This document shows, one piece after another, positions 13,480 through 16,193 of a stretch of DNA of 45,306 nt; within the stretch, counting starts at the first letter, position 1, and the number at the start of each line of letters is the position of its first letter. Under the pieces are notes generated by a model. That model was not told where the DNA came from. It ran no database searches and worked only from the letters and a program-made list of their open reading frames with translations. Made by a program: the position numbers and the translations under genes. Source of the DNA: Acrocarpospora phusangensis (GTDB lineage: Bacteria; Actinomycetota; Actinomycetes; Streptosporangiales; Streptosporangiaceae); the NCBI RefSeq assembly GCF_016862995.1, contig NZ_BOOA01000064.1, forward strand, positions 1 through 45,306, written 5' to 3'.

Positions 13480-15018
13480 TTGACCGACAAGTTATGGGGC
13501 GGCCGCTTCGACGAGGACATCACGCAGGATGTCCTGGACTACACCCTCACCGTGGACGTGGACGTACGGCTCGTCTTCGCGGACCTGTGGCAGGACATCG
13601 CGCACGTGCTGATGCTGGGCGCCGGCGGGATCGTCCCCGGCGAGGTCGCGCGGGCCCTGCTCGGCTCGCTGCTCCAGCTGTGGGAGCAGAACGAACGCGG
13701 GGAGCTGCGGCTCCGCCCCGAGCTGGAGGACGTGCACTTCAACATCGAGCAGATGGTCATCGAGGAGCTCGGGCGCGAGATCGGCGGCCACCTGCAGACC
13801 GCGCGCTCCCGCAACGACCAGGTGTCCACCGACACCCGCATGTACCTGCGCCGGGTCCAGCTCGACGCGGTCGCGGCGAACCTGGACCTGATCGGCGTGC
13901 TGCTGGCCTTCCCCGAGGAGGAGCTGCTGGCGATCCTGCCCGGCTACACCCACAGCCAGGCCGCGCAGCCGATCTCCGTCGCGTTCTGGAAGACCGCGCA
14001 CGCGAGCATGCTGCTCCGGGACGTACGGCGGCTGCGCGACGCGTTCGGCCGGACCGACGAGTCGCCGCTGGGCGCGTGCGCGCTCGCCGGGACGTCCTTC
14101 CCGCTCGACCGCGAGCTGACCGCCCGGCTGCTCGGCTTCGGGCGCGTGCTCAGCCACGCGCTGGACGCCACCAGCGCCCGCGACTACCTGATCGAGAGCG
14201 CCGCGGCCTTCGCGATCGGCGGCAACACCCTCTCCCGCATGGCCGAGGAGGTCGTCATGTGGAGCGGGCACGAGTACAGCCTGGTCGAGGTGTCCGACGC
14301 GTACGCCACCGGCAGTTCGATCATGCCGCAGAAGAAGAACCCGGTCGTGGCCGAACTGGCCAGGGGACGCGCGGGACGTACGGCCGGCACCCTGGTCCAG
14401 CTGCTCACCATGGCCAAGGGCGTGACCCTCGGATACAGCTGCGACCTCCAGGAGGACAAGCCGTATCTGTGGCACGCCATCGACGCCTACCTGTCCACCC
14501 TGCGCATCACGGCCGGGCAGACCCGGGGGCTGCGGTTCGACAGCGCCCGCGGCGAGGAGCTGTGCTGGGACAACTTCTCCACGGCCACGGAACTGGCCAA
14601 CCACCTGGTCGCCGAGCGGGGCCTGGCCTTCCGCGAGGCGCACCACGTCAGCGGCGCGCTCGTCTCGGCCCTGCTCAAGCGGGGGGCGACGCTGCGGGAC
14701 ACGGCGGCCGGGGCGGAGATCCTCGCCGGGCTCGGGCATCCCGTGGCCGAACCCGTGCTCGCCAGGATCTTCGCGCCGCGGAACGCGGTCGCCGGGTACG
14801 TCAGTCCCGGCGGCACGTCACCGGCGAGCGTCGGCGCCGTACGCGACGAACTGAACGAGGCCGTGGCCGGGCACGCCGCCTGGCTCGACGAGACCCGGCG
14901 GAGGATCGGCGACGCCCAGGCGGCCGCCTTCGACGCCGCCCGCGAGGTCGCCGGCGGAGCCGACCTCGGCAAGGCCCTCGACCGTATCCTTCCCACCCTT
15001 AACGGAGGCCTGTCATGA
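13480..15018 (+). CDS. Argininosuccinate lyase paralogue in the NRPS locus
   Basis: This 512-aa protein belongs to the fumarase/aspartase superfamily and has the argininosuccinate lyase hallmarks: KLWGGRF near the N-terminus, Thr157-His158 (GYTHSQ), and the catalytic loop GSSIMPQKKNP (278-288). Housekeeping lyases split argininosuccinate into arginine and fumarate. Several positions usually fixed in the family differ: LHT(G/A)RSRNDQ reads LQTARSRNDQ (Gln106), YN(R/K)DLQEDK reads YSCDLQEDK (319-327), and the N-terminal FxxS region reads YTLT. The start is TTG at 13480, supported by the conserved N-terminus and the upstream AAAGGGGAC. Its stop overlaps the synthase start (ATGA). I infer a lyase acting on an argininosuccinate-like adduct for the NRPS product; a plain arginine-supply role remains possible. 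Confidence 0.85.
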   Translation: MTDKLWGGRFDEDITQDVLDYTLTVDVDVRLVFADLWQDIAHVLMLGAGGIVPGEVARALLGSLLQLWEQNERGELRLRPELEDVHFNIEQMVIEELGREIGGHLQTARSRNDQVSTDTRMYLRRVQLDAVAANLDLIGVLLAFPEEELLAILPGYTHSQAAQPISVAFWKTAHASMLLRDVRRLRDAFGRTDESPLGACALAGTSFPLDRELTARLLGFGRVLSHALDATSARDYLIESAAAFAIGGNTLSRMAEEVVMWSGHEYSLVEVSDAYATGSSIMPQKKNPVVAELARGRAGRTAGTLVQLLTMAKGVTLGYSCDLQEDKPYLWHAIDAYLSTLRITAGQTRGLRFDSARGEELCWDNFSTATELANHLVAERGLAFREAHHVSGALVSALLKRGATLRDTAAGAEILAGLGHPVAEPVLARIFAPRNAVAGYVSPGGTSPASVGAVRDELNEAVAGHAAWLDETRRRIGDAQAAAFDAAREVAGGADLGKALDRILPTLNGGLS

Positions 15019-16193
15019 AGATCGTTCTGGCTTACTCGGGCGGTCTCGACACGTCCGTGGCCCTGCACTGGCTCAAGCGGCGGTACGACGCGGAGATCAT
15101 CGCGTTCTGCGCGGACATCGGCCAGTTGGAGTCGCTGGAGACCGTGAAGGAGCGGGCCCTGCGCACGGGCGCGTCCAGCGTGTACTTGGAGCCGCTCACC
15201 GACCGGTACCTGACCGATTTCGCGCTCCCCGCCCTGCAGGCGCACGCACGCTACGAGAACAAGTACCTGCTGGCCGCACCCCTGTCCCGGCCGTTGATCG
15301 CGCAGCGCATGGTGGAGATCGCCCACGCCGAGGGCGCCGACGCCGTCGCCCACGGCGCCACCGGCAAGGGCAACGACCAGGTGCGCTTCTACACCAGCGT
15401 GACGGCCCTCGACCCCCGGCTCCGGGTGCTCGCGCCGGTCATCGACTGGGAGCTGACCAGCCGCGAAGCGGAGATCGCGTACGCGACGGAGCACGGCATC
15501 GACGTGTCGGTGAGCAAGGAGAAGCCGTACAGCATCGACACCAACATCTGGGGCACCAGCATCGAGTGCGGTGAGCTGGACGACATCCACCAGCCGCCGC
15601 CCGGCCACGCCTGGCAGCTGACCGCCGACCCCAAGGCCGCCCCCGACCAGGCCGAACAGGTCACGGTGGGCTTCGAGGGCGGCGCGCCGGTCTCCCTCAA
15701 CGGCGACAAACTGGACCTGGCCGAGCTGGTGAGCGCCCTGACCGGGATCGCCGCCCGCCACGGCGTGGGCCGCGTCGACATCGTGGAGAGCCGCGTCGTG
15801 GGCTTCAAGACCCGGGGCATCTACGAGGCGCCCGCCGCGACCGTGCTGATGGCCGCCCACGAGGAACTGGAAGCGATCATCCTCGACCGCGAGACCCTCC
15901 ACTACAAGCAGGGCCTGGCCCACCGCTACGCCGAACTCGCCTACTACGGCTACTGGTTCTCCGACCTGCGCCGCGCCCTGGACGGCTTCATCTCGACGTT
16001 GCAGCCGCAGGTCACCGGCGAGGTCACCCTGGAGCTCTACAAGGGAACCCTGAGCGTGGTCAGCCGCCGCTCCCCCAACTCCCGCTACAGCGACTCCCTC
16101 GCCACCTACGAAGCCGGCGACACCTTCGACCACCAGGCAGGCGCGGGCTTCGCCTACGTGTGGTCCCTCCCCCTCAGGGGCTCGGCCCGCTGA
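15015..16193 (+). CDS. Argininosuccinate synthase paralogue in the NRPS locus
   Basis: This 392-aa enzyme has the ATP loop AYSGGLDTS (6-14) and the aspartate/ATP block GATGKGNDQVRF (114-125). The family joins a ureido compound (citrulline) to aspartate using ATP. By alignment to the human and Thermus enzymes, the citrulline contacts Tyr84, Arg124, Ser173, Ser182, Glu258 and Tyr270 are kept. The usual (G/V)-(T/S)-(S/A)-L-(A/S)-R-P segment instead reads AAPLSRP (87-93), so the polar residue next to bound citrulline is lost and a proline appears. The typical actinobacterial ArgG segment is YPLVSALSRP, so this copy looks like a separate lineage. It is coupled to the lyase by a 4-bp overlap. The 3' end overlaps the convergent ABC ATPase gene by 20 bp. 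Confidence 0.88.
   Translation: MKIVLAYSGGLDTSVALHWLKRRYDAEIIAFCADIGQLESLETVKERALRTGASSVYLEPLTDRYLTDFALPALQAHARYENKYLLAAPLSRPLIAQRMVEIAHAEGADAVAHGATGKGNDQVRFYTSVTALDPRLRVLAPVIDWELTSREAEIAYATEHGIDVSVSKEKPYSIDTNIWGTSIECGELDDIHQPPPGHAWQLTADPKAAPDQAEQVTVGFEGGAPVSLNGDKLDLAELVSALTGIAARHGVGRVDIVESRVVGFKTRGIYEAPAATVLMAAHEELEAIILDRETLHYKQGLAHRYAELAYYGYWFSDLRRALDGFISTLQPQVTGEVTLELYKGTLSVVSRRSPNSRYSDSLATYEAGDTFDHQAGAGFAYVWSLPLRGSAR

Follow-up and report, generated by a model that had tools for sequence, protein, structure and literature searches.

Organisation of the NRPS cluster

Why does an NRPS cluster carry its own homologues of argininosuccinate lyase and synthase, and what do the two enzymes make? 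The question is raised by a locus in the window, the whole 45,306-nucleotide stretch of Acrocarpospora phusangensis DNA that was analysed. The first-pass annotation, made from the letters alone, described argH and argG as a coupled operon divergent from NRPS genes. The gene models agreed with this description, with a 4 bp overlap between argH and argG and two NRPS genes on the opposite strand (Table 1). The annotation was also right that no arginine-pathway gene flanks the pair in the window; the opposite end of the cluster is occupied by a formyltransferase gene. Both promoters are presumably located in the region between the two operons. The gene models were derived from a codon model, and their starts are approximate. 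The argH start was placed at the TTG at 13480, and an ATG reading frame at 13494-15002 was rejected because it lies in a different frame.

Table 1. Features of the cluster in the window.
Feature	Position	Strand	Basis and proposed role
Formyltransferase (Formyl_trans_N + Formyl_trans_C, 315 aa)	529..1476	-	Pfam; proposed ornithine N5-formyltransferase, ArgF replacement
MFS exporter (423 aa)	1520..2791	-	Pfam; same place in L129 and L130
NRPS2, C-A-PCP-C	3051..7646	-	Pfam; present in two further genomes
NRPS1, A-PCP-C-A-PCP	7643..12631	-	Pfam and gene model; start codon uncertain, ORF open to 12883
Divergent intergenic region, NRPS and argHG operons	12632..13479	.	Codon periodicity lost
ArgH* (argininosuccinate lyase homologue, 512 aa)	13480..15018	+	TTG start; proposed N-succinylformamidine lyase
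ArgH* residues	Q106 13795-13797; V289 14344-14346; S320-C321 14437-14442	+	
ArgG* (argininosuccinate synthase homologue, 392 aa)	15015..16193	+	Proposed ATP/Asp-dependent ligase on N-formyl amino acid

A comparison of the window's first 22 gene models (E 1e-20) showed a six-gene cluster that is syntenic in three genomes, with the synteny stopping at 529 and 16193. ArgH and ArgG are full length and 85-89% identical across these genomes, and the orthologs of the window formyltransferase in N. typhae and N. solani are 88-89% identical. The shared gene order supports the assignment of the argH-argG pair to the NRPS cluster. The genes at 16174-25600 (an Rbs-type ABC transporter, an isochorismatase-family protein, HyuA/HyuB, a CoA-transferase and GntR) were discarded as cluster members, as neither N. 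typhae nor N. solani has a syntenic copy next to the cluster. The downstream genes had only non-syntenic matches of 35-48% at locus L034, to two ABC ATPases and an aldehyde dehydrogenase.

A second copy within a diverged clade

The presence of other argG and argH genes in the genome had been set beforehand as a check, and housekeeping copies were found (argG at C7:127756, argH at C7:137131 and argF at C7:126309). This supports reading the window pair as a diverged second copy. ArgG and ArgH each fall into one clade (support 100/100), and the altered residues of the pair are thus unlikely to be due to chance. The clade comprises at least 21 argH-argG pairs among the matches listed from a motif-seeded scan; the ArgG proteins of L022-L024 are identical, leaving approximately 19 different loci among the 21 listed pairs. 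Two further clade ArgG copies of the A-P type, L099 and L100, are solitary and are carried on Streptomyces plasmids, with no argH on the whole plasmid records and no trio-type formyltransferase in the stretches examined; they count as evidence against the formyl branch proposed below. Close relatives of ArgH* (E 1e-120) were rare, being found in one of five genomes in the genus sample and one of 396 in the phylum sample, the one being this genome.

Altered residues in ArgG* and ArgH*

ArgG* scored 462 bits against TIGR00032 (NCBIfam; cut-off 268.2), above the ArgG family score. It matched T. thermophilus ASS (1j1z) with 396 bits in phmmer over residues 1-389, in 389 columns without a gap, and its AlphaFold2 model had a mean pLDDT of 90.6. 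The ASS-like nitrile synthetases 9leh and 9lei matched far more weakly (116 and 117 bits, compared to 396 for 1j1z). The nitrilobacillin preprint (PMC13060819) was also set aside, as its accessible part concerns asparagine-synthetase-like enzymes.

The A-P pair at residues 88-89 of ArgG*, noted in the first-pass annotation as a departure from the family with the other contacts kept, proved to be a feature of the clade. A88-P89 (15276-15281) is fixed in the clade ArgG, while all 63 non-clade ArgG carry T/S/C and then S/A. The changes T88A and S89P sit between the citrulline contact Y84 and the ATP contact R92, and residue 89 presumably has a contact role itself. Alanine is present at position 89 in 6/63 non-clade ArgG, and the loss of the Ser89 side chain alone would therefore not stop citrulline use; the fixation of T88A/S89P across the clade nonetheless raises doubt about the activity of ArgG* on citrulline. 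I143 and D189 are likewise fixed, in place of the R143 and E189 of 63/63 others. Thirteen citrulline, aspartate and ATP contact positions, taken from the human numbering list of PMC13289927 and carried over to ArgG* by motif, were identical in 23/23 clade ArgG. No contact is listed at human 91-92 (PMC13289927), and the accessible part of PMC3475689 held no information on contacts.

ArgH* scored 453 bits against TIGR00838 (NCBIfam; cut-off 279.5), above the ArgH family score. Residues T157-H158 and S280, which we take to be the catalytic His and Ser of the lyase superfamily, were kept in 21/21 listed clade members. ArgH* reads YSCDLQ and KKNPV where the family motifs are Y-N-(R/K)-D-(L/M)-Q and K-K-N-P-D. 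S320-C321 and V289 were present in all of the 21 listed clade members, with N, K/R and D at these positions in 50/50 others, and W170 is likewise fixed in the clade. We assume a contact role for positions 289, 320 and 321. Gln106 and the YSCD motif had both been singled out before, and both are real; however, only YSCD is fixed in the clade. Gln106 was found in three of the 21 listed members (the window, L010 and L034), with His in the other 18, and was dropped as a clade signature in favour of a local feature of three loci. Overall, the clade-fixed changes at otherwise invariant positions in these alignments speak against citrulline as the substrate and in favour of a different one.

A linked formyltransferase and a proposed formyl branch

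A formyltransferase gene was linked to 21/21 listed clade pairs, although the clade is monophyletic and these are not 21 independent events. Linkage was seen in 18 of 20 pairs within the first stretches, in L010 and L034 through a wider search, and in the window. The gene adjoins the pair in 18 cases (3' of argG in 16 and 5' of argH in two) and lies 11-12 kb off in three Nonomuraea-type clusters. As a control, the same queries matched 5/60 non-clade argG loci (0/40 in Paenibacillaceae, 5/20 elsewhere); on checking, all five were purN within one syntenic block and were rejected as trio members. The window formyltransferase scored 107.7 bits against PF00551 (Formyl_trans_N). N-x-H and a downstream D are present, in keeping with the Asn-His-Asp pattern of the family, whose residues we assume to have their usual roles.

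As the formyltransferase is linked to every listed pair, the substrate may be an N-formyl compound and the product a formamidine, which seems likelier than a guanidine. We consider it an even call that the formyltransferase, ArgG* and ArgH* form a parallel formyl branch making N5-formimidoylornithine for the NRPS. The whole of this pathway is inferred, from the chemistry of each step and the source of the formyl group to the use of ornithine, the NRPS loading and the export. The formyltransferase would stand in for ArgF and formylate L-ornithine at its N5 amine, with 10-formyl-tetrahydrofolate as the donor. The resulting N5-formylornithine is citrulline with H replacing the ureido NH2. ArgG* would use ATP to adenylate the formamide oxygen and join aspartate to give an N-succinylformamidine, from which ArgH* would eliminate fumarate to leave N5-formimidoyl-L-ornithine, an arginine analogue bearing an amidine. 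The NRPS would load this amino acid, or one closely derived from it, and the finished peptide would leave the cell through the MFS protein. More tentatively, bacteria of three phyla might run such a branch, with a formyltransferase replacing the carbamoyltransferase and re-tuned ArgG and ArgH giving N5-formimidoylornithine. In the accessible part of the literature searched, neither an argG/argH/formyltransferase trio nor a formamidine arising by such a route was described.

The adenylation domain pockets are acidic (NRPS2: D235 V236 E239 D278 ... A322 I330 T331; first A domain of NRPS1: D235 V236 E239 N278 ... A322 I330 T331), and D235, E239, N278 and I330 of the latter are common to an A domain of the siderophore NRPS. 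This agrees with the formyl branch, but pocket codes carry little weight as evidence, and the assignment of positions 299/301 varies with the alignment register.

Alternative explanations

Ordinary arginine supply, by a dedicated and perhaps feedback-free copy that uses housekeeping citrulline for the NRPS or a beta-lactam pathway, with formylation a separate matter, is unlikely. It would explain why every listed contact for citrulline, aspartate or ATP is retained. Clavam-type clusters use arginine, and L011 carries TPP-enzyme, beta-lactam-synthetase-type and arginase/TauD genes, including an arginase-family domain. However, a copy with an unchanged substrate would have no need of fixed changes at positions that are invariant in the other sequences examined, such as those at ArgG R143/E189 and ArgH D289/N320, and the link to a formyltransferase would be left unexplained.

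The first-pass annotation had proposed an altered, non-citrulline substrate linked to the NRPS, which the fixed residues support, and had specified a ureido amino acid and a guanidino product, which the constant presence of the formyltransferase makes less well supported. This reading, with the formyltransferase employed otherwise, for example in peptide capping, is rather improbable. It agrees with the linkage of the pair to the NRPS and with canonical chemistry that is kept while nearby residues are altered. The missing carbamoyltransferase is no argument against it. The argF product of this genome matched 0/23 clade stretches as a query, compared to 41/61 non-clade stretches, the latter being 40/40 Paenibacillaceae and this genome's own locus; among ordinary argG loci outside Paenibacillaceae, a carbamoyltransferase was found in 0/20. 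The contrast is thus a non-discriminating Paenibacillaceae effect and was also discarded as an argument for the formyl branch, the odds of which were lowered slightly. Pfam scans, covering part of the genes at the loci, found no carbamoylating family, which counts against a ureido substrate. Furthermore, some clade clusters have the formyltransferase and the pair with no NRPS seen, and two unlike formyltransferase lineages, two-domain C4 and short C9 (split at 100/100), occur beside the pairs. Read by eye, the ArgG and ArgH trees would need at least two formyltransferase swaps. A ureido substrate leaves both observations unexplained.

The trio could also convert an amine to a formamide and a formamidine by the same chemistry on another amine, although we consider this quite improbable. 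The amine might then belong to some other diamino acid, to ornithine bearing an N-acyl group, or to an intermediate that is carrier-bound or late. Arginine-related neighbours of the clade loci, which support the formyl branch on ornithine as well, include AstA and AstB at L027, the ArgJ family in nine loci, LysE with an ArgP-like LysR, and the arginase-family domain at L011; AstA, an N-succinyltransferase, and the ArgJ-family proteins could mean an N-acylated substrate. The kept citrulline contacts and the kin of the C4 formyltransferases speak against this and for the formyl branch on ornithine. Close C4 relatives adjoin an ornithine N5-monooxygenase gene in this genome (PF13434, 344 bits) and in two others (55-57% homologues), with middling support for the kinship (87/92 for the join and 83/90 for the C4 side). 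NRPS genes lie nearby in all three genomes, and FecCD uptake genes in this genome only. A hydroxamate-siderophore reading of the cluster was ruled out, as the ornithine N5-monooxygenase, used as a tblastn query, matched neither the window nor any of the clade loci examined. Finally, solitary ArgG copies do occur in the clade, but the six-gene synteny, the full-length conservation and the intact reading frames and catalytic residues make a relic or bystander pair, without a part in the NRPS product, most improbable.

Comparison with known systems and significance

The proposed formyl branch can be set against several known systems. The window pair shares its families and its ATP, aspartate and fumarate machinery with the canonical ArgG/ArgH, but differs in the clade residues (A88-P89, I143 and D189 in ArgG; V289, S320-C321 and W170 in ArgH), and the steady partner of the clade pairs is a formyltransferase instead of ArgF. 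The formyltransferase resembles the N5-hydroxyornithine formyltransferase of coelichelin-type siderophore clusters, which we take to be CchA. It is 60% identical to the copy adjoining the monooxygenase in this genome's siderophore-type cluster and shares N-[IV]-H-D-x-L-L-P with it; however, neither an ornithine monooxygenase nor a siderophore uptake gene is present in the six-gene cluster of the window. The Streptomyces arginine analogue L-N5-(1-iminoethyl)ornithine also has an amidine at N5 of ornithine, as an acetamidine where the proposed product would be a formamidine.

In the att locus of Rhodococcus fascians (pFiD188), argH, argG and a formyltransferase gene overlap head to tail. The ArgG and ArgH belong to the same clade, while the formyltransferase is of the short C9 lineage. 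In place of an NRPS, the partners are ArgJ, an adenylating enzyme, a crotonase, a CarC-like TauD protein and a protein of asparagine-synthase type; the matches to CarB and CarA/BLS were measured on Micromonospora homologues. The att metabolite was described as yet to be identified in 2014 (PMC4092121), and the role of the locus was left open in 2020 (PMC7261884).

If the formyl branch holds, it would represent a dedicated enzymatic route from an amine to a formamidine, obtained when 10-formyl-THF takes over from carbamoyl phosphate as the C1 donor at the start of a textbook pathway. The product of the att locus would become directly testable, and the trio would offer a concrete clue to the structures made by uncharacterised clusters of Nonomuraea, Streptomyces, Micromonospora, Catenulispora, Nostoc and an acidobacterium. 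More broadly, argG and argH annotations in natural-product clusters would be able to hide other chemistry.

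The argH-argG pair and its clade

The argininosuccinate lyase and synthase genes of the window were recovered exactly where the first-pass annotation had placed them, with the NRPS genes divergent from them as it described, and both products fall in their families by curated score. The annotation had made the specialised role of the pair depend on other argG and argH genes in the 9.1 Mb genome. Contig C7 carries argF (C7:126309), argG (C7:127756) and argH (C7:137131), and the window pair is therefore a second copy, its ArgG and ArgH being 45% and 40% identical to the housekeeping proteins.

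A motif-seeded scan of GTDB genomes returned 395 relatives. Among the best 80 of the 395 loci, 20 contained an argH-argG pair with A-P at ArgG 88-89, and two further A-P ArgG genes lay on Streptomyces plasmids (among the matches listed, 25 of 95 records). In trees built from 47 of 86 ArgG rows and 37 of 71 ArgH rows, the A-P proteins formed a single clade each, with support of 100/100. The members come from Actinomycetota, Nostoc and a Terriglobia MAG; the ArgG is identical in three loci (L022-L024). Residues invariant within the clade that differ outside it include A88, P89, I143 and D189 of ArgG, and T24, W170, T231, V289, S320, C321, P328 and W331 of ArgH; the roles of these ArgH residues are partly presumed. 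Gln106 of the lyase, singled out earlier, is present in only 3/21 clade members, the window protein among them. The claim that the synthase contacts are kept held: 13 citrulline, aspartate and ATP positions, mapped by motif from the human numbering of the contact list of PMC13289927 and including four of its ATP contacts, were unchanged in 23/23 clade members. As residues 88-89 are flanked by Y84, which contacts citrulline, and R92, which contacts ATP, the change would lie where the reacting end of citrulline meets ATP.

Table. Coordinates of features in the window and in comparison loci
Feature	Position	Strand	Remark
NRPS2	window 3051-7646
NRPS2, C-terminal part	window 3051-4310		terminal condensation domain, apparently SYLNLDG in place of the usual HHxxxDG
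NRPS1	window 7643-~12631
argH	window 13480-15018	+	TTG start
argG	window 15015-16193	+	4 bp overlap with argH
Rbs-type ABC transporter, isochorismatase-family protein, HyuB/HyuA-type hydantoinase, CoA-transferase III	window 16174-25600	-
GntR regulator	window, to 26280	-	same run
HMG-CoA-lyase-like, zinc alcohol dehydrogenase, aldehyde dehydrogenase	window 26362-29806	+	consecutive genes, divergent from the GntR gene
Two long ORFs (592, 1334 aa)	window 39129-45213	-	coding-type GC pattern
AstA-like, formyltransferase, ArgH, ArgG, B3/4-domain protein, AstB	L027 5518-13274		Terriglobia operon
Arginase-TauD fusion beside beta-lactam-synthetase-type and TPP enzymes	L011 2604-7953		Streptomyces dysideae; clavam-like set adjoining the trio
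Solitary A-P ArgG	L099 9714-10886		Streptomyces plasmid; motif reads LSRSLIA
Solitary A-P ArgG	L100 20001-21161		Streptomyces plasmid
Monooxygenase, formyltransferase, FecCD uptake, NRPS	L097 6679-18001; L126 (contig C60)		siderophore-type cluster

Linkage to a formyltransferase

By gene neighbourhood and Pfam, a formyltransferase accompanies the clade pair, making a trio. It was found in 18/20 clade loci in the stretches first searched, and the remaining two, from Nonomuraea typhae and N. solani, have a copy 88-89% identical to that of the window at 11-12 kb from argH; with the window included, 21/21 pairs are linked, counts that are not independent because the clade is one lineage. The same queries matched 5/60 non-clade argG loci, an unbalanced control of 40 Paenibacillaceae (0/40) and 20 others (5), with some short stretches, such as L028 and L030 (~4 kb). 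All five matches were purN in one conserved block and were rejected as trio partners. The gene order is argH-argG-formyltransferase in 16 loci and formyltransferase-argH-argG in two (Nostoc, L026; Terriglobia, L027), and in the three Nonomuraea-type clusters the formyltransferase lies at the far end.

Two formyltransferase lineages, separated at 100/100, serve the clade. The two-domain C4 lineage (best PDB matches ArnA and Fmt) occurs in Terriglobia and the rest, and the short C9 lineage (best PDB matches glycinamide ribonucleotide transformylases) in Nostoc and a Rhodococcus-Catenulispora-Propionibacteriaceae group, a distribution that, read by eye on the ArgH and ArgG trees, requires at least two swaps. 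There is thus good evidence that formyl transfer would belong to the function of the trio, since the gene appears to have been swapped while the activity was kept.

With the ornithine carbamoyltransferase of this genome as query, no match was found at E 1e-3 in 23 clade stretches (the window, the 20 loci, and L129 and L130, wider stretches with the same cluster). It matched 41/61 non-clade stretches at 1e-10, namely 40/40 Paenibacillaceae loci and the housekeeping locus of this genome. As it was near argG in 0/20 other non-clade loci, ordinary argG genes are often distant from argF, and the absence backs a formyl reading solely by not contradicting it.

The solitary plasmid ArgG genes count against the trio. 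The two share just ~1.45 kb of DNA around ArgG, no argH was found on either whole record, and the formyltransferase on the L100 record is of siderophore type and 267 kb away. They are possibly detached or decaying copies.

The NRPS cluster and its surroundings

A block of six genes, in which formyltransferase-MFS-NRPS2-NRPS1 diverge from argH-argG, recurs in syntenic order in N. typhae and N. solani, with full-length matches at 74-89% protein identity. The synteny ends at window 529 and 16193, and the formyltransferase thus belongs to a compact cluster in which the pair and the NRPS make up the remaining enzymes; N. solani has three non-syntenic matches (35-48%) to later window genes. The closest matches of the cluster are from Nonomuraea.

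The NRPS domain order is A-PCP-C-A-PCP / C-A-PCP-C; given the terminal motif of NRPS2, product release may be unusual. The pocket of the first A domain reads D-V-E-N (235/236/239/278) and A-I-T (322/330/331), and that of NRPS2 D-V-E-D, then A-I-T; positions 299/301 depend on the register (V,S and I,A by script versus V,G and V,G in the preferred register). These pockets may be compatible with an ornithine-type side chain, either polar or cationic. One domain of the siderophore NRPS of this genome reads D-M-E-N ... L-I-N, which we take to be the hydroxyornithine code. The first A domain is nearest to that of NRPS2 (40%), and its identity to each of the four siderophore domains is 34-37%; whole-domain identity thus gives no preference for the hydroxyornithine-code domain.

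The run at 16174-26280 resembles a catabolic operon, acting on a lactam- or hydantoin-like compound and unrelated to the NRPS cluster; the nearest NCBIfam models of its hydantoinase are caprolactamases, under cut-off. The two long ORFs had no Pfam match.

Candidate substrate and other contexts

A paralogue on contig C60, 60% identical to the window formyltransferase, adjoins an ornithine N5-monooxygenase (PF13434, 344 bits). FecCD-type uptake genes lie close by, as does a long NRPS (at least 6300 residues, four A domains seen, reaching the end of the stretch analysed). Two relatives, one from N. solani and one from a Streptomyces plasmid, adjoin a 55-57% identical monooxygenase, with NRPS matches of 54% over 468 residues (L128) and 41% over 136 (L127) and no FecCD match in the surrounding 12-13 kb. 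We take these enzymes to resemble the N5-hydroxyornithine formyltransferase of coelichelin-type siderophores. They group in the tree with the C4 genes of actinomycetes at 87/92 (C4 side 83/90), and the Terriglobia gene falls outside (96/94). The monooxygenase query matched no clade locus.

AstA and AstB in the Terriglobia locus, ArgJ-family members assigned by clustering in nine loci (Pfam on one), a LysE translocator and a LysR regulator annotated ArgP in Rhodococcus, and the arginase-TauD fusion of L011 point to ornithine- or arginine-like amino acids. The arginase family includes a formimidoylglutamase, and in the products of such loci the predicted amidine may persist or be taken off again. 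The B3/4 domain of the Terriglobia operon is of tRNA-synthetase type and could provide self-protection against an arginine analogue.

In Rhodococcus the locus corresponds, on our gene-by-gene reading, to the att locus of pFiD188, reportedly the subject of a paper by Maes et al. in 2001 that PMC7002392 cites. The best match of its TauD protein is carbapenem synthase CarC. For its crotonase and synthetase the comparison was made on the Micromonospora homologues: the crotonase homologue is closest to a CarB homologue and CarB (305, 167 bits), the synthetase homologue to beta-lactam synthetase and CarA (87, 83 bits). PMC7261884 places the ten-gene locus on pFiD188 and treats the role of its metabolite as open, and PMC4092121 describes the metabolite as yet unidentified.

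N5-formylornithine is citrulline with H replacing NH2, and could be accepted by a re-tuned ArgG. On the sequence evidence, the chances are about even that the trio is a formyl branch of arginine biosynthesis, the formyltransferase replacing ArgF, which would yield a formamidine look-alike of arginine. Among the open-access papers listed, no title or abstract described such a trio or a formamidine formed by it. Each of the three enzyme families was known before; what is new is their combination and the proposed substrate switch. More tentatively, bacteria of three phyla may run such a branch, from ornithine through N5-formylornithine to N5-formimidoylornithine, which here would supply the NRPS.
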